A model generated the notes under the pieces. The model saw nothing but the letters and a program-made list of their open reading frames with translations. It had not been told where the DNA came from and made no database searches. The position numbers and the translations under genes are program-made. Shown one piece after another: positions 4,976 through 49,812 of a stretch of DNA of 64,000 bases. How positions within the stretch are numbered: the first letter of the stretch is position 1; every line of letters starts with the position of its first letter. The stretch is from Rheinheimera sp. EpRS3 (lineage in GTDB: Bacteria; Pseudomonadota; Gammaproteobacteria; Enterobacterales; Alteromonadaceae). Where the stretch lies: positions 62,001 through 126,000 of the forward strand of contig NZ_LNQS01000007.1 of assembly GCF_001513785.1 (NCBI RefSeq), written 5' to 3'.

Positions 4976-4996
4976 CGAGAAGATATTTCAGTCATG

Positions 4997-5554
4997 ATGA
5001 AGACAGCTCAAGAACTGCGTGCTGGCCAGGTGATTATGGTTGGCACAGAACCAATGGTAATTTTAAAAGCCGAGTTTAACAAATCCGGCCGTAACTCTGC
5101 CGTGGTTAAAATGAAAATGAAAAACCTGCTGAATGCGCAGGGCATGGAAACGGTATACCGTGCTGATGACAAATTTGAACAGGTTCTGCTGGAAACTAAA
5201 GAAGTAACTTATTCTTACTTCTCTGATCCTATGTATGTCTTTATGGATCAGGAATACAACCAGTTCGAAGTTGAAGCAGAAAACATGACCGAAGCACTGA
5301 AGTACCTGGTAGATGGTATGGAGTGCTCAGTGGTGTTCTATAACGAGCGGCCAATTTCTGTTGACCTGCCAACGGTTGTAGTACGCACTGTCACTTACAC
5401 TGAACCAGCAGCCCGTGGTGATACTTCAGGTAAAGTATTAAAACCAGCTAAAATTGAAACTGGTTTTGAGCTAATGGTACCGGCGTTCGTGGAAGAAGGC
5501 GACAAAATCGAAATCGATACCCGTACCGACGAGTACCGCAGCCGCGCCAAGTAA
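4997..5554 (+). CDS. efp: Elongation factor P (Arg32, rhamnosylated type)
   Basis: Relieves ribosome stalling at polyproline stretches. Two ATGs are adjacent (4994 and 4997). Starting at the second gives [11 protein letters not shown] and places the modified residue of KSGRNSAV at Arg32, the standard numbering, with 185 residues in all. It has the three EF-P domains: an N-terminal KOW-like domain with the Arg32 loop, then two OB-like domains ending in DEYRSRAK. Arg rather than Lys at this position goes with the adjacent earP and not with EpmA/EpmB. A strong terminator follows. Confidence 0.97.
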
Positions 5555-5577: not shown

Positions 5578-5601
5578 AAGGCGCTCAGGCGCCTTTTTTA
5601 A
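5578..5601 (+). terminator. Rho-independent terminator of efp
   Basis: Stem AAGGCGC/GCGCCTT with a 4-base loop, followed by TTTT, 23 bases after the efp stop. It marks the end of the core chromosome segment. The attI-like sequence begins about 50 bases later. Confidence 0.88.
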
Positions 5602-5650
5602 TGCCCGTGGTTTTACCATACCGCCTACAGCCCAACCCTTCCTCGCTCTT

Positions 5651-5762
5651 AAAAACCTGTTGATTTACTGAACCTTGTTCGATAGCTTGTTTTCATCAAC
5701 GAAAGATAGAAATGAATTTATACAGTGTGAAAGCGTGTGAGTTCCAAACGATTAAACTGTTA
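5651..5762 (+). other. Second attI-like integron site, without an integrase gene
   Basis: Aligns without gaps to the attI region beside intI (49701-49812). I count 78 identical bases in the first 110. The conserved blocks are CTGTTGATTTA-like, GATAGCTTGTT, AAAGATAGAA, GTGAAAGCGTGTG, TCCAAAC and the final CTGTTA crossover. No integrase remnant lies between it and the efp terminator. Cassette-like genes follow in the polarity expected of an integron. Confidence 0.75.
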
Positions 5763-5780
5763 TAGCTATGGAGTTGTTAA

Positions 5781-6212
5781 TTGAGTCCTGGTGATTTTTT
5801 AGAGCTCATATTCGAAATAGCCCCGGCTTTCAGAGCCGAATGGGAGAGTGAAGATAATTTATTTGTACGAGACGATGGTAGTTATAACTTTCATTCTGTT
5901 TGCAGTAAGTTTTCTCACTATTTTATTACTCAGGAAAAGCACAAATATGCCTCAAGAAATGACGTCATGTGGAATCCCACGATTGCAGATTCTAAGCTAA
6001 TTTATTTGTTCAGTTTGTTTGAATCGAATATAGAAAATATCGAGACAAAAGAATCGTTGAAAACGCCGGAAGGCTCGCTATCAAATGCTATATGCACATG
6101 TTTTCTCGAAAATATTTCTCAAACAAATGCAGGTGAGTATGCAAAGGGGTTCATGGGCAAAAAAAGCAGAGCTTACTTTGAGCAATGGCATGTTTATAGT
6201 AAAAGGCTATAA
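5781..6212 (+). CDS. Hypothetical protein, satellite cassette S1 (DUF7674-like)
   Basis: A 143-residue soluble protein starting at TTG. GGAG seven bases upstream supports this start, and the nearby ATG at 5768 is in another frame and stops at once. It begins SPGDFLELIFEIAPAFRAEWE and ends with GKKSRAYFEQWHVYSKRL. This start and end pattern resembles small proteins I recall as DUF7674, of unknown function. It is the first gene after the orphan attI-like site, and its stop codon lies inside the next attC, as is usual for cassettes. Codon use is A+T-richer than the neighbouring core genes. Confidence 0.65.
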   Translation: MSPGDFLELIFEIAPAFRAEWESEDNLFVRDDGSYNFHSVCSKFSHYFITQEKHKYASRNDVMWNPTIADSKLIYLFSLFESNIENIETKESLKTPEGSLSNAICTCFLENISQTNAGEYAKGFMGKKSRAYFEQWHVYSKRL

Positions 6213-6306
6213 CAGCTTGCTTACTTTCGCTCCGATTACAAAACAAATTGGCCTCCACGGGTTTGTTTACGCTGAGTTGTGGCAACCCATTAGCGATGCG
6301 TGAGGC
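6207..6306 (+). other. attC site of satellite cassette S1 (degenerate right core)
   Basis: About 100 bp, clearly of the same family as attC7, attC9 and attC11 of the main integron. Shared elements in order are TAACA-G-TTGCTTA-TTTCG-TCCG, GGCCTCCACGGG, TACGCTG, GGCA-CCCATTAGC. The 5' core is CTATAAC. The 3' core reads GTGAGGC in place of GTTAGGC, a change that should weaken recombination. Confidence 0.72.
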
Positions 6307-6315
6307 TGCTCTGTA

Positions 6316-6636
6316 ATGCATCTGTATAGACTCAGGTATTTCTTTTCTGCGGGGAGCAACGTTTGTCTTTGGGCTGAGAATGAAGCTGCGCGCCAGAAGT
6401 GGGACTATCCAATAGATGCGCAGCGTCTGCCGTTGCCTGAAAACACATGGCGGTTTTCGTTCCACCTTTGCGCTTGGTACGACACGAGCATTGATTGGAG
6501 CTATCCACCAAACCCTTCGCCATGGGACGTGCGAGAGCGCACTAACTTCAATCTTGCTGCGCAGCGATTTCTGGCTAGTCTTCGTGAACAACTGGGAGCA
6601 GATTTTGAAATTATTGATGAGTCAGAAACGGCCTAA
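6316..6636 (+). CDS. Conserved hypothetical protein, satellite cassette S2
   Basis: A 106-residue soluble protein beginning MHLYRLRYFFSAGSNVCLW, with a central HLCAWYDTSIDWSYPPNPSPW and an acidic end. This pattern (LYRLRYFF...ICLW...AWYDTSIDWSYPPDPSPW) is one I recall from a widespread uncharacterised bacterial family. The start lies 10 bases after the preceding attC. The stop lies in GCCTAAC, a canonical 5' attC core. No function is assigned. Confidence 0.68.
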   Translation: MHLYRLRYFFSAGSNVCLWAENEAARQKWDYPIDAQRLPLPENTWRFSFHLCAWYDTSIDWSYPPNPSPWDVRERTNFNLAAQRFLASLREQLGADFEIIDESETA

Positions 6637-6741
6637 CATGAGAAAAAGGAGTTGGAGGCAATTAAAGGCACTTAAGATTAACCCGCTATATCCAGTCAGT
6701 GGCTTGAGTAAATGGCGATTATCAGTGCCGCTCTCTTAGTT
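6631..6741 (+). other. Possible degraded attC after satellite cassette S2
   Basis: GCCTAAC (6631-6637) is a perfect 5' core, and CTTAGTT (6735-6741) could be a decayed 3' core. An internal inverted pair GGCACT/AGTGCC fits a folded attC, but the rest of the palindrome is poor. Confidence 0.3.
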
Positions 6742-6763
6742 GATACGTGATTGAAGGAAGCTT

Positions 6764-7270
6764 ATGAGCAATATCGAAGAGTCTGAGTTTGTAAAAAGTA
6801 AACGTGGAAAGTGGTCTAAATCTGGCGTTCCTCATAGAGGTTGGCGTTGCGTCGATATTGAAGATCTCGGTGAGCCTTCTACTACTTGTGGTATGTGTGA
6901 ATCACAAGAAATTCGCTTCGTACATTTTATGGAGCATAGTAATTATCCTGAGGTCCTTCAGGTTGGTTGTGTTTGTGCAGGGCATATGGAAGGAAACCTT
7001 GCCGCGTCACAGGCTCGCGAAGCATCTATGAAAAGCAGGGCGGCAAAGCGAAAGCGCTGGGTTACGCGAGCATGGAAAATTTCAGCTAAAGGCAATCCAC
7101 ACATAACCGCAGATGGATACAGAATTACGGTTTATCCTAGAGGCAATGGTTGGGCATGTACTTTAGCCGGTCTTGTCAGCGGTGCAGTTCAACACTCTCG
7201 TAGATATTTTAAAACTATTGAAGAGGCTAAGCTCGCGGCATTCGACCATATTACAAAAAAAAGCGCATAA
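6764..7270 (+). CDS. Hypothetical cysteine-motif protein, satellite cassette S3
   Basis: A 168-residue protein with AAGGAAG just before the ATG. Residues about 20-75 hold SGVPHRGWRCVDIEDLGEP, then CGMCES, then VGCVCAGHMEG. The CxxC...CxC arrangement suggests metal binding, probably zinc. A basic segment (KSRAAKRKRW) and a C-terminal domain with RITVYPRGNGWACTLAG follow. I recall this as a recurrent uncharacterised family in mobile regions. Function is unknown. Confidence 0.7.
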   Translation: MSNIEESEFVKSKRGKWSKSGVPHRGWRCVDIEDLGEPSTTCGMCESQEIRFVHFMEHSNYPEVLQVGCVCAGHMEGNLAASQAREASMKSRAAKRKRWVTRAWKISAKGNPHITADGYRITVYPRGNGWACTLAGLVSGAVQHSRRYFKTIEEAKLAAFDHITKKSA

Positions 7271-7373
7271 TAAAACAATCAAGCTGATGGTTTGTAAGTT
7301 GAATTATGCTACTGCTCCACTCATTTATGGTAAAAGCACAGCTTTGAAATTGCATCTTACCGCGGTGTTAAAT
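7265..7373 (+). other. Possible attC after satellite cassette S3
   Basis: The interval runs from GCATAAT, at the stop of S3, to GTTAAAT, which fits the GTTRRRY core exactly. The length of 109 bp is in the attC range. An imperfect internal pair (CAAGCTG left, CAGCTTTG right) is present, but symmetry is modest. Confidence 0.4.
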
Positions 7374-7389
7374 ATTTTTGAGAAACCTG

Positions 7390-8085
7390 ATGAAGACAGA
7401 TAACTTAGGTGGCGGATGGTCAAAATTTACAGTTCTTGAACCAGAAACCCAAACATTCTACAACCGCTATTATTACAAACGAATCTTAGCCCATAGGGTT
7501 GTAATTGATACCCCAAAGGCGAAAGCTTTAGCTGCGTATACTTTGATTGAAAAAGATCTCCGAAGCGTATTAGTTTGGCTTTATGAGATTAGAGGGCTAC
7601 TTGCTGACGACAAGGTTATAGCTGGTAAAAAAGGATCGCAGAAAACGGCACATGATCGAACTAGGTACAATTTGATAAAAGGTCTTTTTGTTGCGTCTCT
7701 CACATTTTATGCTAAATGCTTTACAAGCTGTGAAGGACGAAGAATTAAGCTGGAAAAGAAAAATCTATCTGACGACTTTCAAAAGGACCACGACTCTATC
7801 ATGGAGATGAGACACAACTTTGCAGCACACAGCGGTGCTAAGCAGGTTGAGAAAGTTCATGTCGTTCTGGCCCTTGACAGTAAGAAGCGAAAAGGAGCGG
7901 TTCCTTTTATAACAAGAGAACTTGGTCAGCCAGATTCTTACAATCTTGATAGTACTTTAGAGTTTATAGCTTTGGCTTTGCATGTTAAGGAATTCGTTGA
8001 TCTCAAGGTTGATACTTTAAACGAAAAGCTGTTAAAAGATGACATTCTTACAAAGCCACCAGAATATTGGTATAAAAAAACTTAA
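7390..8085 (+). CDS. Hypothetical protein with HEPN-like RxxxxxH motif, satellite cassette S4
   Basis: A 231-residue, mostly helical soluble protein. The ATG at 7390 is preferred to one 12 bases upstream. Its centre has EMRHNFAAHSG, an R-x5-H arrangement like the active site of HEPN-type RNases, or of the related non-catalytic helical proteins. The surrounding helices (LIEKDLRSVLVWLYEIRGLL; ALHVKEFVDLKVDTLNEKLL) fit a helical bundle. No partner gene is present. The stop overlaps ACTTAAC, a perfect 5' attC core. The HEPN assignment is inference. Confidence 0.65.
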   Translation: MKTDNLGGGWSKFTVLEPETQTFYNRYYYKRILAHRVVIDTPKAKALAAYTLIEKDLRSVLVWLYEIRGLLADDKVIAGKKGSQKTAHDRTRYNLIKGLFVASLTFYAKCFTSCEGRRIKLEKKNLSDDFQKDHDSIMEMRHNFAAHSGAKQVEKVHVVLALDSKKRKGAVPFITRELGQPDSYNLDSTLEFIALALHVKEFVDLKVDTLNEKLLKDDILTKPPEYWYKKT

Positions 8086-8100
8086 CAAGTTACTTTTAAG
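8080..8100 (+). other. Truncated attC (5' core only) at the end of the satellite array
   Basis: ACTTAACAAG matches the first part of the attC sites in this genome (RYYYAAC then AAG). Only about 22 bases then remain before the next ATG at 8109, so the right half is missing. It looks like the point where the array was cut and joined to core sequence. Confidence 0.4.
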
Positions 8101-8108
8101 GACGATAC

Positions 8109-8252
8109 ATGAATAACGAAGTGAAAAATTGGTGGCGCTCTGTGCCGGAACGCCAGAAAAAAGGCCTGATGGTGTTAGGCGTTTTTGTCGCCGCCGTGCT
8201 TATTATGAGCTTTGGCGTTACTATCGGCGCCTCGCTGGGCAAAGTACTCTAA
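8109..8252 (+). CDS. Small single-pass membrane protein, 47 residues
   Basis: Reads MNNEVKNWWRSVPERQKKG followed by a hydrophobic helix LMVLGVFVAAVLIMSFGVTIGA and a short tail. The base composition is like the core genes, not like the cassettes just upstream. It is therefore probably the first resident gene after the inserted array. AAGGACG lies about 5 bases before the ATG. Function is unknown. Confidence 0.62.
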   Translation: MNNEVKNWWRSVPERQKKGLMVLGVFVAAVLIMSFGVTIGASLGKVL

Positions 8253-8326
8253 AGTTATTGCCGGTGTTTCAAGCTTTGCTTTTTGTTACCCTTAGCCGCT
8301 TTATTTGCTTTTAATCAGGTCTTTTT

Positions 8327-8890
8327 ATGCCATTAGAAAAACACAAAATGCTATCGGGAGACTGGTATAACCCGCTGGATAGAGAACTTAGTGCTGAGCG
8401 TATGGCTGCACGTAAGTTACAGCATCAGTTTAACCACAGCTTGCCGGATGATGAAGCATTACGTAAACAATTGTTAAAGCAGTGGTTGCCCAATACCGGT
8501 AAACATTTTTATGCTGAACCGCCGTTTTACTGCGATTACGGCTATAACATTAAAACCGGTGCTAAGGTGTTTTTTAATTTTAACTGCGTAGTGCTGGATG
8601 TCGCGCCGGTGAATATTGGCAATAACGTATTTTTTGGCCCGGCAGTACAAATTTATACCGTAAACCACCCGCTAAATGCAGCAGAACGGCGCACATTAAT
8701 AGAGCGGGCTTTGCCTGTAACAATAGAAGACGATGTCTGGATTGGCGGCGGGGCGATACTGTTGCCCGGCGTGACGATTGGTAAGGGCAGTGTGGTGGCC
8801 GCCGGTAGTGTGGTAACTAAAGATGTGCCTGCAGGGGTGGTCGCAGGCGGTAACCCGTGCCGGGTAATTAAAGCTGTATCTGATGAGTAA
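8327..8890 (+). CDS. Sugar O-acetyltransferase, maltose/galactoside acetyltransferase type
   Basis: Transfers acetyl from acetyl-CoA to a sugar hydroxyl. Its 187 residues match the family length. The N-terminal segment MLSGDWYNPLDREL is the usual maltose acetyltransferase N-domain. It is followed by hexapeptide-repeat turns of a left-handed beta-helix (VNIGNNVFFGPAVQIY, VTIEDDVWIGGGAILLPGVTIGKGSVVAAGSVVTKDVP). The catalytic His is in YTVNHPL. The true substrate cannot be told from sequence. Confidence 0.9.
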   Translation: MPLEKHKMLSGDWYNPLDRELSAERMAARKLQHQFNHSLPDDEALRKQLLKQWLPNTGKHFYAEPPFYCDYGYNIKTGAKVFFNFNCVVLDVAPVNIGNNVFFGPAVQIYTVNHPLNAAERRTLIERALPVTIEDDVWIGGGAILLPGVTIGKGSVVAAGSVVTKDVPAGVVAGGNPCRVIKAVSDE

Positions 8891-8938
8891 GGTGCAGCGA
8901 TCAGTTAAGTAAAATTTAATAAGTAAGTAGTAGAAGTT

Positions 8939-9451
8939 ATGTCGATATATATTCGTTTGATTAACGAGGCAGATCTTGGCGCCATAGTGGCGATACAAGA
9001 TAGCTGTTACGCCGATGAACTGTTTGAAGATGCCGGCCTTATCAGTAGGCGTTTGGCATCACAGCCGCAAAGCTGCTGGCTGGCCGAAAATAATAAACGT
9101 GAGGTGCTGGCGTATTTGTTCAGCTATCCGTCGCGTAATAGGCAGGTAGCGCCGCTTGGCAGTGACTTTGGCTGCTACACTGATGCCGAACTGTTGTACC
9201 TGCATGATATGGCGGTAAGCCATAACGCCAGAGGAATGCGCCTGGCACCGCAGCTGTTGGCGTATGCCGAGCAGTATGCAGCTGATTTGGGTTTTAACAC
9301 TCTGGCGTTGGTTGCTGTGCAGGGCTCTGTGCCGTACTGGCAAAAGCAGGGCTTTGAAGTATTAACTCTTACCGACACTGCCGCTTTGCAGGCACTGGCA
9401 AGTTACACCGGCCAGAATGCGGTTTATATGCAAAAGCAACTAAAGGTGTAA
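8939..9451 (+). CDS. GNAT family N-acetyltransferase
   Basis: A 170-residue single-domain protein. It has the GNAT core: an N-terminal strand IYIRLINEADLGAIVAI, then LYLHDMAVSHNARGMRLAPQLLAYAEQYA, where the R-G-M-R-L segment takes the place of the acetyl-CoA loop (Q/RxxGxG/A), and the late strand FNTLALVAVQGSVPYWQKQGFEV. It is a soluble enzyme with unknown substrate, standing alone between the sugar acetyltransferase and a secreted protein. Confidence 0.82.
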   Translation: MSIYIRLINEADLGAIVAIQDSCYADELFEDAGLISRRLASQPQSCWLAENNKREVLAYLFSYPSRNRQVAPLGSDFGCYTDAELLYLHDMAVSHNARGMRLAPQLLAYAEQYAADLGFNTLALVAVQGSVPYWQKQGFEVLTLTDTAALQALASYTGQNAVYMQKQLKV

Positions 9452-9539
9452 ATGTTATGTAATTTGTCCGTATTGTATCTGGTATCTAATGCGGATTTGT
9501 CACTATACTGAACACAATTCATGTTATCAGGATGTTGCG

Positions 9540-9854
9540 ATGAAATTATTTTATGCTGCTATTGTCGTGTTGCTATTTGCCGCACAAGCCAGTGCCTGCG
9601 GTTTCAGATTAAGCGATGGTAAATTGTTACGCTGCGGCATGACACGAATTGATGTGCTGTCGCTGGCTGGCGAGCCGGTAGCAAAAGATGTGGAGACGTT
9701 GGGCGTAGATATTGGCGAGCCGGTAAAAGGCACTACTGTTGAAACCTGGTCTTACCGGCTAAAAGGCGATATCGGCGGGGAATACCTGGTGTCGCTTACA
9801 CTAAAAGGTGGCAAAGTATCTGCGATAAACTCCAGGCAACTGAATCGTATTTAA
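9540..9854 (+). CDS. DUF2845 domain periplasmic protein
   Basis: A 104-residue protein using the ATG at 9540, which has AGGATG upstream and gives a clean signal peptide (MKLFYAAIVVLLFAAQASA, then C). An upstream in-frame ATG at 9489 would put a polar tail before the signal. The mature part has CGFRLSDGKLLRCGMTRIDVLSLAGEP, the recurring DUF2845 pattern (LxxGxxxxDVLxxxGEP). Function is unknown. Confidence 0.72.
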   Translation: MKLFYAAIVVLLFAAQASACGFRLSDGKLLRCGMTRIDVLSLAGEPVAKDVETLGVDIGEPVKGTTVETWSYRLKGDIGGEYLVSLTLKGGKVSAINSRQLNRI

Positions 9855-9960
9855 ATTGTTACATTGTTTGGCTTGTTATGTTTAAAGGTAAGTGTAATGT
9901 GCTTGTATTGTTAGTGAGGTTGGTTTAGAAAGAGTGCTTAACTTTTTATAAGGTACGGTT

Positions 9961-10785
9961 ATGCGTGGGCTTTTTTTTAACAGTATAAGCACTGGTTTAC
10001 TTTTTTCTTTGCTCACGGCTTGCGGTAGCGGTGGCGATACAGCAAACGATCAGGGAGGTATAGTTACTCCACCACCTGTTGTTATCTCACCACCACCAGT
10101 AGATGAAATGCTGCCTATACCGGATAACCGCTACGTAGACCAATACCAGATACTGCTTGTTGGTAATAGTCATGTCAGTTCAAATAATCTGTCGTCAGTG
10201 TTAAGCGCTTTACTGGAACAAGGTACTGGTAAAACCACCGTTGCTACTGTGGCACCGGGATGGGCATATCTTGATGAAAGGTTGAGCGATGGTGTTACGC
10301 TGGCTGCGCTGCAATCCCAAGACTGGAGCCATGTAATATGGCAAGCGCAGAAATACTCAACCACCGGTCAGTACTCTTATTCTACAGCGGCGTCAGAATA
10401 CTGGGTTGCGCTAAGTAAACAGTTATCGGCTACTCCTATTATGTTTCCGGAGCATCCACAAAGAGGCAACGCTGAAGAAGGCATGCGGGTTTATTTGCTG
10501 CATTTGGGTATTGCTGGTAGGGAAGCAAGTTGTGTGGCACCCATTGGACCTGCCTGGAATAATGCAGTAGGCATGCTACCTCAGACATCTTTTCATACTG
10601 ATGGCAATCATGCGTCACTGGCCGGAACTTTACTAACAGCGCTGGTGTTTTACGAGATTATTAGTGGTGAATCAGCTGATGAGTTACCTTACATGCCACA
10701 GATCGCATTAGCGGAGCAGCTTCAGGCTCAGTTAAGACAAATTGCATCTGCTACTTTACAGCAATACTCTGGTTGTACTTACTAG
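9961..10785 (+). CDS. SGNH-hydrolase-like lipoprotein
   Basis: A 274-residue protein with a lipoprotein signal ending LLTAC (Cys21), then a proline-rich linker, so it is probably anchored in the outer membrane facing the periplasm. The catalytic domain begins with ILLVGNSHV, where Ser70 fits SGNH block I. Near the C-terminus DGNHASLAGTLLTA fits block V (DxxH). Blocks II and III are not obvious. An esterase or related hydrolase is likely; the substrate is unknown. No operon partners were seen. Confidence 0.72.
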   Translation: MRGLFFNSISTGLLFSLLTACGSGGDTANDQGGIVTPPPVVISPPPVDEMLPIPDNRYVDQYQILLVGNSHVSSNNLSSVLSALLEQGTGKTTVATVAPGWAYLDERLSDGVTLAALQSQDWSHVIWQAQKYSTTGQYSYSTAASEYWVALSKQLSATPIMFPEHPQRGNAEEGMRVYLLHLGIAGREASCVAPIGPAWNNAVGMLPQTSFHTDGNHASLAGTLLTALVFYEIISGESADELPYMPQIALAEQLQAQLRQIASATLQQYSGCTY

Positions 10786-10806
10786 CGGATCATCTGCACA
10801 AATGGT

Positions 10807-11469
10807 TTAACGTGACAATAAGTATAAGTCGCTTAGGGTCATCGTATTACCGCCGAGTTTTAACTGGCTAAGCAGCAGCAGGGCGCTGCTGTAGGCATCT
10901 TCCAGTGCGTGGTGATTTGCCATATCGGGCAGGCCGTGACGCTTAAGGCAGTTGGGTAGCTTAAGTGCATCATGTTTTACTACCTTACCCTGGCGCAGCA
11001 GGCGCTGCCATTCCATTTGCATGGTGTCAATAAAACGAAAGCGCGGCGCTTTGCCAAAACAGCGCTGGCAGGCAAAACGCAGACATTGCTCGTCCAGCCC
11101 ACTGTGGTGGGCGACAAATATGTAGCCGGCGTAGTGCGATAACAACTCAGTGAGTATCTGTGCCAGATCATGGGCATTTTTTAACTGATGATCGTGTAAG
11201 CCATGATATACCGCACTCTGGCCGACACTGACCGGGCTATTTATCAGATAATGCTTTGCTTCAGCCAGCACAATTTCCTGCCCTCTGATGGGCACCCAAC
11301 CAATGCTGACGATATGGTCTTTGCGCGGATTAAGCCCGGTAAGTTCAAGATCCAACACCAGAAAATTAGCCTGCTCTATCGGGGTTGAAGACGCAGGGAA
11401 TGGGGTATTAATAAAATGGTTTACCACTTCACTTAAGGCGGTGTTTTTACGCAATAACCAGCCGAACAC
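10807..11469 (-). CDS. DnaQ-like 3'-5' exonuclease (DEDDh)
   Basis: A 220-residue nuclease. Exo I motif is VLDLELTGL (catalytic Asp and Glu), and the last motif is HHALEDAYSSALLLL, giving the H-x4-D of DEDDh enzymes. The middle aspartate region includes VAHHSGLDEQCL. It resembles the exonuclease domain of polymerase III epsilon but without the tau-binding tail. It starts one base after the stop of the CBS/DUF294 gene upstream, so they form one transcript. This pair commonly sits beside acetate-use genes. Confidence 0.88.
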   Translation of the reverse strand: MFGWLLRKNTALSEVVNHFINTPFPASSTPIEQANFLVLDLELTGLNPRKDHIVSIGWVPIRGQEIVLAEAKHYLINSPVSVGQSAVYHGLHDHQLKNAHDLAQILTELLSHYAGYIFVAHHSGLDEQCLRFACQRCFGKAPRFRFIDTMQMEWQRLLRQGKVVKHDALKLPNCLKRHGLPDMANHHALEDAYSSALLLLSQLKLGGNTMTLSDLYLLSR

Positions 11470-47243: not shown

Positions 47244-47337
47244 GAGCCGATGTCTCTTTATGTCATCACAGAGTGTTTGAAGGAGTGCTGCTGGCACGAC
47301 TGAGTTGCTGTGGTGAGTAGAAAGAGATTTTCGGCTC
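47244..47337. repeat. Palindromic repeat P-C, inverted relative to P-A and P-B
   Basis: The conserved inner blocks appear in reverse orientation: CACAGAGTGTTTGA, then GAGTTGCTGTGGTGAG. The outer stem is again different but self-complementary (GAGCCGA plus CTCTTT pairing with AAAGAG plus TCGGCTC). It ends about 40 bases before the prpF start. Confidence 0.65.
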
Positions 47338-47378
47338 GTACTCCACGCGATAAACATAAACTTCATTGGGCAAAAACT

Positions 47379-48566
47379 ATGACAGCTCCACAAATAAAAA
47401 TCGCTGCTACTTATATGCGTGGCGGCACCAGCAAAGGCGTATTTTTTAAACTGGACGACTTACCAGCCGCCGCCCAAGTGCCCGGCACATCGCGTGACAA
47501 CCTGCTGCTACGGGTTATTGGCAGCCCCGATCCGTATGGTAAACATACCGACGGTATGGGCGGCGCTACCTCCAGCACCAGCAAAACCGTAATTTTAAGC
47601 CAAAGCAGCAAGCCTGAGCATGACGTTGACTACCTGTTTGGCCAGGTAGCGATAGACAAGCCGTTTATTGACTGGAGCGGCAACTGCGGCAACTTAACGG
47701 CGGCGGTGGGGTCATTTGCTATCAGCAACGGCCTGGTGGCCAAAGGGTGTATCCCACAAAATGGCATCTGCACGGTGCGCATCTGGCAGGCGAATATCAA
47801 CAAAACCATTATTGCTCATGTACCGATAACCAACGGCGAAGTGCAGGAAACCGGTGACTTTGAACTGGACGGTGTTACTTTCCCTGCGGCAGAAGTGCAA
47901 ATTGAGTTTTTAGACCCGGCCGCCGATGCAGGCGAGGGCGGTGGTGCCATGTTCCCCACCGGCAACCGGGTAGATGAGTTAGAAGTGCCCGGTATCGGCA
48001 CTTTTAAAGCTACGCTGATTAACGCCGGCATCCCGACTATTTTTGTGAACGCCGCCGATATCGGTTACAGCGGCACCGAGCTGCAAGATGCGATAAACGG
48101 CGATGCCGCCGCACTGACACGCTTTGAAACCATCCGCGCCTACGGTGCGGTAAAAATGGGCCTGATAAGCGATATTAGTGAAGCTGCCGCCCGGGCGCAC
48201 ACGCCGAAAATTGCTTTTGTGGCACCTCCTGCAAGCTATGTATCATCCAGCGGCAAGCAGGTAAATGCCAATGATATCGATCTTTTGGTACGGGCGCTGT
48301 CGATGGGCAAACTGCACCACGCCATGATGGGCACTGCCGCAGTGGCCATTGGCACTGCAGCAGCAATACCCGGCACCTTGGTAAACCTGGCTGCCGGTGG
48401 CGCAGCGCGTGAAGCCGTGCGCTTTGGCCATCCGTCCGGCACCTTGCGGGTAGGCGCAGCAGCAACACAGGTAAACGGGCAGTGGACAGTAACCAAAGCC
48501 ATAATGAGCCGCAGTGCGCGGGTATTAATGGAAGGTTTTGTGCGGGTGCCCGGCGATTGCTTCTAG
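47379..48566 (+). CDS. prpF: 2-methylaconitate cis-trans isomerase PrpF
   Basis: Isomerises the AcnD product so that it can be hydrated to methylisocitrate. The ATG at 47379 gives MTAPQIKIAATYMRGGTSKGVFFKLDDLP, the family start, and 395 residues; upstream in-frame sequence lies in repeat P-C. Motifs are GGATSSTSKTVIL and WSGNCGNLTAAVGSFAI, typical of the PrpF/diaminopimelate-epimerase-like fold. It is the last gene of the operon, with a strong terminator. Confidence 0.95.
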   Translation: MTAPQIKIAATYMRGGTSKGVFFKLDDLPAAAQVPGTSRDNLLLRVIGSPDPYGKHTDGMGGATSSTSKTVILSQSSKPEHDVDYLFGQVAIDKPFIDWSGNCGNLTAAVGSFAISNGLVAKGCIPQNGICTVRIWQANINKTIIAHVPITNGEVQETGDFELDGVTFPAAEVQIEFLDPAADAGEGGGAMFPTGNRVDELEVPGIGTFKATLINAGIPTIFVNAADIGYSGTELQDAINGDAAALTRFETIRAYGAVKMGLISDISEAAARAHTPKIAFVAPPASYVSSSGKQVNANDIDLLVRALSMGKLHHAMMGTAAVAIGTAAAIPGTLVNLAAGGAAREAVRFGHPSGTLRVGAAATQVNGQWTVTKAIMSRSARVLMEGFVRVPGDCF

Positions 48567-48596
48567 TTGATGCTGTGAGTATTTAGCAAGTTATCA

Positions 48597-48618
48597 GGGC
48601 GCTTCGGCGCCCTTTTTT
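48597..48618 (+). terminator. Terminator of the prp operon
   Basis: Stem GGGCGC/GCGCCC with loop TTCG, followed by six T. It overlaps the last bases of the convergent intI gene. Confidence 0.93.
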
Positions 48619-49582
48619 ACAGCAGTTGTGACAGCGGGCTTTTTACGCCAGCAGCACCGCGGTTTAGTACATGAGTGTAAATTTGTGTAGTACGCACATC
48701 GGTATGGCCTAATTGCTCTTGCACAGTGCGGATATCGGCGCCAGATTCCAATAAATGTGTAGCAAAGGAATGGCGTAGTATATGGCAGGTAACATTTTTG
48801 CAGATCCTTGCCTTTTTTGCTGCCAATTTAATTTCGCACCTGACGCAACTCTCGTCCAGATGGTGGCGGCGCAGTAGCTTAGTGTCGGGGTCGACGCTTA
48901 ACTGCATTGACGGAAACAAATACTGCCAGCCGAGCTCTTTGGACGCATTTGGGTACTTACGTCCCAGCGCATAAGGCAACCAGACACCCGCATAATTAGG
49001 GTTTGCCAAATCGGCCTGAAAATACTGCAGCACATGCTGGCTTTGCTGTTTTAGCGAAACAACTAATTCCGGCGCCAGAGTAGTACGTCGGTTTTTATTG
49101 CCTTTACCCTGCCATACCATTACAGACAGGTAGTCGTAATCAATATCATGCACGCGCAACCTAACAGCCTCCATTAACCGTAAACCACTACCGTACATTA
49201 ACTGCGCCAGCAGTTTATAACGTGGCTCAATAACCCTTAGCAGTGCCGCAATTTCGCTACGGGTTAGCACTACCGGCAGCTTGGGTGCAAGCTGTGAGCG
49301 ATTAAAGTTAAGGTTTAAAGACAAAGGTTTTTGCAATACGGCTTTATACAGAAAGCTCAGGGCATTAAGTGCCGATGCTTGAGTGCGTGGTGCAACATTA
49401 CGCTGATTAGTCAAATACGTTAAAAAACGCTCGACATCCTGTTCGGTTAACTGTGCCGGATGCTGTTTTTTGTTGAACAAGATATACATTTTTATCCAGT
49501 ACACATAGCCTTCAACCGTTCTTTTGGCATAACGGCGGGCATACATAAACTCAGCGATATACTGTAAAAACGGCGAGGCCAT
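48617..49582 (-). CDS. intI: Integron integrase IntI
   Basis: A tyrosine recombinase that moves cassettes between attC and attI. The ATG at 49582 has AAAGGTG 6 bases upstream and gives 321 residues beginning MASPFLQYIAEFM. The N-terminal SAM-like core-binding domain is about residues 1-90. The catalytic residues are Arg135 (GSGLRLMEA), His267 and Arg270 (CHILRHSF), His293 (GHTDVR) and Tyr302 (TQIYTH). The insertion at about 208-245 (KYPNASKELGWQYLFPS and on) is the patch found only in integron integrases. All catalytic residues are intact, so it may be active. It is convergent to prpF and divergent from its cassettes. Confidence 0.96.
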   Translation of the reverse strand: MASPFLQYIAEFMYARRYAKRTVEGYVYWIKMYILFNKKQHPAQLTEQDVERFLTYLTNQRNVAPRTQASALNALSFLYKAVLQKPLSLNLNFNRSQLAPKLPVVLTRSEIAALLRVIEPRYKLLAQLMYGSGLRLMEAVRLRVHDIDYDYLSVMVWQGKGNKNRRTTLAPELVVSLKQQSQHVLQYFQADLANPNYAGVWLPYALGRKYPNASKELGWQYLFPSMQLSVDPDTKLLRRHHLDESCVRCEIKLAAKKARICKNVTCHILRHSFATHLLESGADIRTVQEQLGHTDVRTTQIYTHVLNRGAAGVKSPLSQLL

Positions 49583-49700: not shown

Positions 49701-49812
49701 AAAAATCTGTTGATTTAATTGGTTTTATTGGATAGCTTGTTGTTCATTATTAAAGATAGAAGGGAGCAAACGCTGCGTGAAAGCGTGTGCGCTCCAAACT
49801 ATAAAGCTGTTA
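49701..49812 (+). other. attI recombination site of the integron
   Basis: The region between intI and the first cassette, ending at CTGTTAG, where cassettes join after the G at 49809. It aligns gap-free with 5651-5762. Blocks shared by both copies (TGTTGATTTA, GATAGCTTGTT, AAAGATAGAA, GTGAAAGCGTGTG) may be integrase-binding repeats or the cassette promoter; a weak TTGATT-17-TAGCTT pair is present in both. Confidence 0.8.

Follow-up and report, generated by a model that had tools for sequence, protein, structure and literature searches.

An attI site without an adjacent integrase gene behind efp in Rheinheimera sp. EpRS3 and similar sites in related bacteria

The window analysed here is a stretch of 64,000 nucleotides from the genome of Rheinheimera sp. 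EpRS3 (G000). In this study, we found that positions 5651-5759 of the window are probably a genuine attI site with a promoter and without intI, one of many such modules, which an integrase encoded elsewhere may serve in trans (probability about 0.8). On this reading, intI would have been lost from beside the 5651 attI or would never have been there. The exact ends of the first cassette show that an integron integrase put cassettes into the site at the G|TT crossover. At many intI-less (orphan) sites of the Rheinheimera group, the local intI would have been deleted and the promoter-attI part kept, and some attI sites of Colwellia may have spread as modules, a few of them within the cassette stream. 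Orphan attI sites may still be usable by an IntI that is encoded elsewhere and acts in trans, as the cassette turnover at orthologous intI-less sites suggests. The 5651 site would today accept new cassettes at best and would not release the old ones, because the array in the window has lost recognisable attC sites.

Results

The block at 5651 and the attI beside intI

The integron integrase gene of the window, intI, is an open frame on the minus strand (48617-49582) and scored 460 bits against TIGR02249, for which the cut-off is 265. It was the only full-length IntI in G000 among the matches listed. There were seven IntI-like matches in this genome. Besides intI, those listed comprised four partial ones that span 50-64 residues and, judging from their length and identity, are presumably Xer-type recombinases. 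The linked attI lies on the plus strand at 49701-49809 with the crossover after G49809, and its first cassette has cognate ends of 7 nt (GTTAGCC/GGCTAAC). In relatives, the prpF locus (window about 47310-49582), which is about 40 kb from efp, carries IntI of either of two lineages. The identity to the window IntI is 65-71% in one lineage and 82-94% in the other, and this looks like the replacement of one integron by another at a single locus.

An earlier note on this DNA had reported that 5651-5762 aligns with no gaps to 49701-49812 at 78 of 110 positions and that both blocks end in CTGTTA. The shared end was found as described, and our recount gave 80 identities in 112 positions. The note had also proposed a comparison with shuffled sequence, and the match proved to be far above background. 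Among 300 dinucleotide shuffles of the block, the highest score on the plus strand of the window was 57, and the runner-up real places scored 48 (plus strand) and 50 (reverse strand). When positions 5600-5780 were searched against the whole genome (4.4 Mb, 14 contigs), only the query itself and the linked copy were found (E 4e-13).

In 17 linked copies, 55 columns reach a conservation of 90% or more, and the orphan block (5651-5759, plus strand, crossover after G5759) retains 50 of them. The remaining 19 orphans described below keep 45-55 of these columns, and the linked copies keep 44-55. A putative cassette promoter, Pc, of weak consensus lies at 5660-5688 on the plus strand (TTGATT, 17 nt, TAGCTT). 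TTGAT[TA] was present in 40/40 copies of the block; a generic promoter scan did not call the putative Pc at 5660-5688 and gave a minus-strand site only. As the earlier note had said, IntI homology is absent near 5651, and the adjoining intI of a complete integron is thus missing there.

The locus behind efp

The left chromosomal neighbour of the block is efp, the gene for elongation factor P (4994-5554, plus strand; Pfam PF01132/PF08207/PF09285), and the block sits behind efp and its terminator. In relatives, efp and the genes beyond the insertion are collinear. The insertion, which consists of the orphan attI and the cassette genes (5604-8272, plus strand), lies between efp and a maltose-acetyltransferase-like gene and was seen in G000 only among the 21 genomes compared. 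An efp match was obtained in 29 relatives and 20 regions were compared; the contig of G004 stops about 1.1 kb behind efp. The attI block behind efp was absent in 20/20 of the relatives compared, and their alignment breaks off at 5597-5624 and restarts at 8273 or later. The gap between the aligned parts is 15-26 bp in five relatives and holds other sequence in others, and therefore the spot behind efp is variable. We considered 5604-5650 as a remnant of the intI-attI spacer and dropped this candidate, as 50 of 298 random 47-mers of the window scored equally. Since 5604-5650 has no significant trace of a spacer, both intI deletion and relocation are possible for the window copy.

Cassettes behind the 5651 site

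The first cassette, c1 (5760-6306, plus strand), starts with TTATAGC directly after G5759. Its R'' at 6206-6213, GCTATAAC, equals the reverse complement of GTTATAGC exactly, so that the cognate ends agree at 8/8 positions; the R' at 6300-6306 is mutated. In chromosomal DNA, an 8-nt cognate end occurs within 1.2 kb by chance at about 3% of sites. The ORF of c1 (5781-6212, plus strand) has a weak match to DUF7674. A relative of the c1 protein with 78% identity was found in G017, which was the sole match besides G000 in a sample of 147 family genomes that took in part of the genomes of the genus. Upstream of this relative lies an attC rather than an attI, and the attC at its own end is intact. 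The homology between the two loci begins at the same G|TT, with none upstream, and the homology among copies of the block stops at GTTA, exactly where the relative of c1 begins. The cassette start at G|TT, the cognate R'' and the identical start of the G017 relative bear out the earlier description of 5651-5762 as a second attI-like site. Together with the likeness to the attI of the same integrase, they make it well supported by the sequence that the block is a genuine second attI.

Cassettes could also have entered the efp locus at a non-classical site (attG), which is neither attI nor attC, and the likeness to attI would then be coincidence or convergence. Integration at attG is known (PMC12444791), but the 5651 site is attI-like over an ungapped 112 bp, keeps 50/55 conserved columns and has the promoter element in place, which makes this explanation hardly credible.

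The R'' of the c1 attC is intact, and the R' core reads GTGAGGC instead of the GTTAGGC predicted from the R'' of the second cassette gene, c2 (6316-6637, plus strand; R'' GCCTAAC at 6631-6637). A protein relative of c2 (38%) lies between two attCs in an intI-linked array of G005. The ORFs of c3 (6764-7270, plus strand) and c4 (7378-8085, plus strand) have no match in Pfam, NCBIfam or PADLOC. In c5 (8096-8262, plus strand), a short ORF was seen by eye at 8109-8252, and 167 bp of DNA with 75% identity lie between two attCs of the intI-linked array in G002. PADLOC and NCBIfam gave zero matches for four cassette proteins of the efp locus. We counted the relatives of c1 (G017), c2 (G005) and c5 (G002) in cassette arrays elsewhere for our main reading, and the mutated core of the first attC against it.

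In the 9 kb after the 5651 site, no attC scoring at least 9.5 was found with a home-made finder, from which a covariance-model search could differ. Five weak candidates with scores of 8.1-8.3 lay within 5600-11000. At the threshold of 9.5, this finder gave 9.0 hits per 10 kb in arrays and 1.2 in upstream DNA. Two earlier finders were discarded; one was too strict, and with the other, upstream and shuffled controls produced about 9-10 hits per 10 kb, about half of its rate in arrays. With no attC above threshold, the window array does not show the two or more recognisable attC sites without intI that define a CALIN. The earlier note had stated that an attC and cassette genes follow in the right polarity; this holds for the genes and their polarity, but the first attC is degenerate. 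Because of its mutated core and the lack of attC sites above threshold, the window array looks decayed, headed by an attI in good shape. At the 5651 copy, the decayed attC speaks for a relic array that is headed by a well-preserved attI.

attI copies across the Rheinheimera group

The genus set comprised 31 mostly draft genomes, in which some sites are near contig ends; the relatives are named Rheinheimera, Arsukibacterium and Alishewanella. Searches with the two attI copies of the window found matches in 20 genomes each and in 22 combined. All listed sites of this type (type 1) were retrieved, and a profile yielded 40 copies. IntI lies beside 19 of them, several being broken and L172 being beside a scrap only, and 21 copies including that of the window are without it. 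One of the 21, L149, is at a contig start with its upstream side missing, and 20 orphan copies in 14/31 genomes were therefore counted. A full-length type-1 IntI is encoded elsewhere in six of these genomes (G000, G002, G005, G009, G015 and G019). Five have a full-length type-2 IntI only (G001, G011, G024, G029 and G030), and three have a broken type-1 IntI only (G016, G017 and G021). We counted these last two groups against our main reading.

The orphans have different upstream neighbours. Besides efp, these are a DUF3667 gene with a 179-aa ORF (locus A), pectate lyase (locus B), and uvrC with, by eye, a tRNA cluster (locus C); at single sites, they match PurT, DcuC, DCD, MazG, short-chain dehydrogenase and PNP_UDP_1. 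The first intI codons are still present at L140, L142 and L150 (by eye). The left ends of other orphans lie near -108, near -90 and at -5 (locus B), followed by the window copy, and so form a graded series. The intI-attI spacer is still visible by eye in 16/20 orphans. At locus A, R. baltica has the 179-aa ORF, then intI, then attI, and in G016, G005, G017 and G024 intI is gone with one junction common to all four. On the prpF side in R. pleomorphica (G019), intI was lost and attI was kept (L151). The graded left ends, the locus A junction and L151 thus show that intI was repeatedly deleted while promoter and attI were kept. The loss at locus A most likely predates the split of the four species, because they have one intI-less junction.

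A relocation of the block offers a different history for the window copy. IntI would have acted at the left GTTA (GTTAAAA) and at the attI crossover, the 110-bp attI piece would have moved to efp as a cassette, and intI would never have been there. The homology to the linked copies indeed starts at most 5 bp from GTTAAAA at both efp and locus B; the Colwellia modules described below that start directly behind the G|TT of an attC (by eye) also fit, and delta-attI cassettes recombine in class 1 and class 2 integrons (PMC12901181). However, the base preceding TTAAAA at efp is C, not G. Moreover, the upstream gene at locus B is the one that flanks intI in R. nanhaiensis and R. pleomorphica, so that locus B could also be a deletion. 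On balance, we consider this history unlikely.

At L143 and L145 (locus B), two different terminal cassettes with the same AAC end were observed about 1.1-1.35 kb behind attI, and near-identical chromosomal sequence follows this AAC, as if the cassettes had been swapped at a half attC. At L168, L169, L171, L301, L340 and L364, an insertion that starts GTTGAACT(A/T)... with a G+C-rich hairpin lies directly at the attI crossover; it recurs in several genomes and is possibly an element that targets attI or attC.

Cassette turnover and constraint at intI-less sites

The first cassette has a cognate end of 8 nt or more within 2.5 kb at 10/20 type-1 orphans and 13/19 linked copies. In the controls, 8-nt cognate ends occurred at 38/1255 sites of chromosomal DNA within 1.2 kb and, within 3 kb, at 24/285 random GTT positions of Colwellia arrays. 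Cognate ends of 7 nt were seen at L135 and L153, and none were found within 2.5 kb at L139, L142, L144, L145, L147 and L150; the attI of L144 is cut at position 90, and L145 is one mismatch short of a cognate end (by eye). The sequences of L140 and L141 were too short for a call. The earlier note had named a general dispersed repeat unrelated to integrons as the finding that would overturn its claim. The many copies per genus agree with such a repeat, but in the related genomes searched the copies end at cassette starts, and the cognate ends at orphan and linked copies exceed those of both controls. A dispersed repeat is therefore extremely improbable.

The first cassette at locus A is a different one in each of G016, G005 and G017, with cognate ends that are 7, 9 and 10 nt long. 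Between G005 and G017, no common match of at least 150 bp (blastn, E 1e-15) was found before 4.5 and 3.7 kb; the contig of G016 stops 0.96 kb after the start of the block. We also examined where the copies at orthologous loci differ. For locus A, 53 columns are conserved in the linked copies, and these include 2 of the 14 variable columns (p 0.005). Conserved columns made up 6/22 of the variable ones at locus B (p 0.02) and 12/42 at locus C in three species (p 0.0008). For G002 and G001 alone at locus C, the value was 8/18 (p 0.45), with no sign of constraint. In a search for cassettes common to the orphan and linked arrays of one genome (blastn, at least 150 bp), only a match of 73% over about 150 bp in G009 was found. 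Since the cassettes changed at orthologous intI-less sites, IntI acting in trans would be the simplest reading.

These changes bear on the view that the efp site is merely the tail of a dead integron. According to it, no orphan attI is in use, and the cassette differences predate the loss of intI or arose by homologous recombination. The degenerate attC at the window site and the graded intI remnants at other sites support this view, and in Xanthomonas citri a CALIN without intI carries the same pair of cassettes in every genome (PMC12444791). Yet the locus A junction is common to four species, three of which have different first cassettes with cognate ends. Different first cassettes also occur at a type-2 site of G000, G005 and G016 (see below), and substitutions avoid the conserved attI columns at loci A, B and, in three species, C. 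We regard a purely relic origin as possible rather than probable. The earlier note had offered one integrase for two attI sites or a relic of a duplicated or relocated integron as alternatives. The two are not exclusive, as the intI remnants are graded and the cassettes still changed.

Type-2 attI sites

When the attI of the second IntI lineage (G013) was used as a query, similar cores were found in 31/31 genomes. The count was based on 73 rows, that is, all rows to E 2.6e-7 minus one overlapping antisense row, with weaker rows excluded. They were compared with 52 IntI rows, from which weaker recombinase rows were excluded; some sites are at contig ends. Of the 73 cores, 59 start at least 2.5 kb from every IntI row, and they occur in 30/31 genomes. 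An IntI scrap was seen in only one of 20 type-2 loci inspected (7.5-13 kb). First-cassette cognate ends of at least 8 nt were present at 10/21 sites.

Three attI-like sites of this second type were also observed in G000, at C1:464790 (L351), C1:190447 (L352) and C9:581764 (L353). Two of the three are degenerate (by eye), and the sequence inspected contains no IntI. The good site, C1:464790, has orthologues in G005 and G016; the upstream sequence is 88-97% identical, with about 0.8 kb extra in G000. The first cassettes at the three orthologues start differently, with cognate ends of 9 nt in G005, 10 nt in G016 and none in G000, and between G000 and G016 common sequence resumes 3.5 kb downstream. 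We counted the lack of a cognate end at the G000 site against our main reading. At a type-2 site common to G013 and G028 (upstream 72%), the cassettes are different and have cognate ends of 12 and 9 nt.

attI modules in Colwellia

With the attI region of C. psychrerythraea (L203) as a query, matches were obtained in 31/39 genomes of the genus, with 3-7 matches in 21 of them; an IntI match was present in 35/39 (E 1e-20). The 40 loci examined are part of all sites. Half of them (19 from Colwellia and one from another genus) came from two candidates scored per genome, and the remaining 20 came from the search with the L203 attI region. A profile gave 42 rows, and 41 modules were left after removal of one weak, overlapping row on the opposite strand. 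IntI is in the locus of eight modules (one broken, one of the other genus), and 33 are without IntI, in about 19 upstream contexts by crude clustering. Of the 33 orphans, 18 have cognate ends of 8 nt or more within 2 kb. A single IntI match was found in the complete genome G297, along with at least four modules, whose first cassettes have cognate ends of 8, 12, 11 and 9 nt, and a fifth, partial attI match.

The sequence CTGTN8ACAG, which we take to be the LexA box motif, occurs exactly in 16/33 Colwellia orphans and 7/8 linked modules. Among the orphans, 27 have a complete left end, and in these the half-sites match the linked consensus at 93.5% and the N8 core at 60.6%. Only 8 of 12870 column assignments were as good in a permutation test, and 103 were as good when 13 orphans of different contexts were used. 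LexA boxes were often retained without intI, as at L294, L297-L299, L327, L329, L330, L332 and others, and a motif like TTTTAATARCAAAATARTCTTA was seen to the left of those boxes at several unrelated loci. LexA control of Pc was considered as the cause of the kept boxes and was dropped, as the Pc of V. cholerae is not under SOS control (PMC3948777).

At L336 and L325, the attI module starts right behind the G|TT of two different, unrelated attCs (by eye). These results suggest that attI apparently travels as an ORF-less cassette at these Colwellia loci. Modules with a common left stretch were observed at L336 (6536-6740 and 8250-8453), L325 (6304-6507) and L334.

Discussion

A broader reading is that Rheinheimera and Colwellia have distributed integrons, in which a single IntI serves several attI platforms spread over the chromosome that are kept by selection once the local intI is lost, and in which some modules move within cassette arrays and thereby seed new platforms. 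We give this about an even chance. The further point that each platform would have its own promoter, in Colwellia often with a LexA box too, belongs to the same reading and carries equally balanced odds. If true, the intI locus by itself would not suffice to judge integron activity, cassette expression and genome plasticity. A larger number of cassettes would stand first behind a promoter, and part of the arrays filed as CALIN relics would be live platforms. Orphan sites would also serve as natural intI deletions for the study of trans action. Such sites are easily missed, because IntegronFinder detects attI in class 1 only (PMC9024848), and the window array may escape a CALIN search because it has no attC above threshold.

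It has been stated that an integron has one attI (PMC3607928), and the earlier note had taken two attI sites with a single integrase to be an undescribed arrangement. This was not borne out for the arrangement as such, as there is one precedent in a Shewanella prophage (PMC9892861), and it stands, as far as we found, for the extent, the common loci and the turnover. In a shallow literature search, which is a weak test, we found no report of genus-wide orphan attI sites, common loci or turnover, and as far as could be seen only the extent is new relative to the literature.

Compared with known systems, the 5651 site is like a sedentary chromosomal integron (intI, Pc, attI and array) in its attI block, its cognate first cassette and its polarity, but it has no intI in reach, and the only integrase is 44 kb away. 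The window array is also like a CALIN in having cassettes without a neighbouring intI, and the loss of intI is listed as an origin of CALINs (PMC8618304); unlike a CALIN, it is headed by an attI with a promoter and has no attC above threshold. CALINs away from intI have been reported (PMC12444791, PMC9229058). Those of Xanthomonas are likewise intI-less arrays at fixed chromosomal loci apart from the integron, whereas an attI is not part of the description of the distal ones in the passages of PMC12444791 consulted. Delta-attI cassettes of class 1 and class 2 integrons, in which attI replaces attC at the cassette end and recombines, are comparable to the Colwellia modules. They mostly carry 14-18 nt of attI in mobile integrons (one carries 244 nt and one a complete attI1; PMC12901181), whereas the Colwellia modules consist of the whole attI and upstream sequence. 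The one precedent found is the Shewanella prophage, which has one integron and an attI-headed CALIN and thus two attI sites for one intact IntI, as here. That case concerns one cryptic prophage with a 28-bp attI motif at both sites (PMC9892861), whereas the sites described here are chromosomal and diverged and occur at many loci in many species of two genera.
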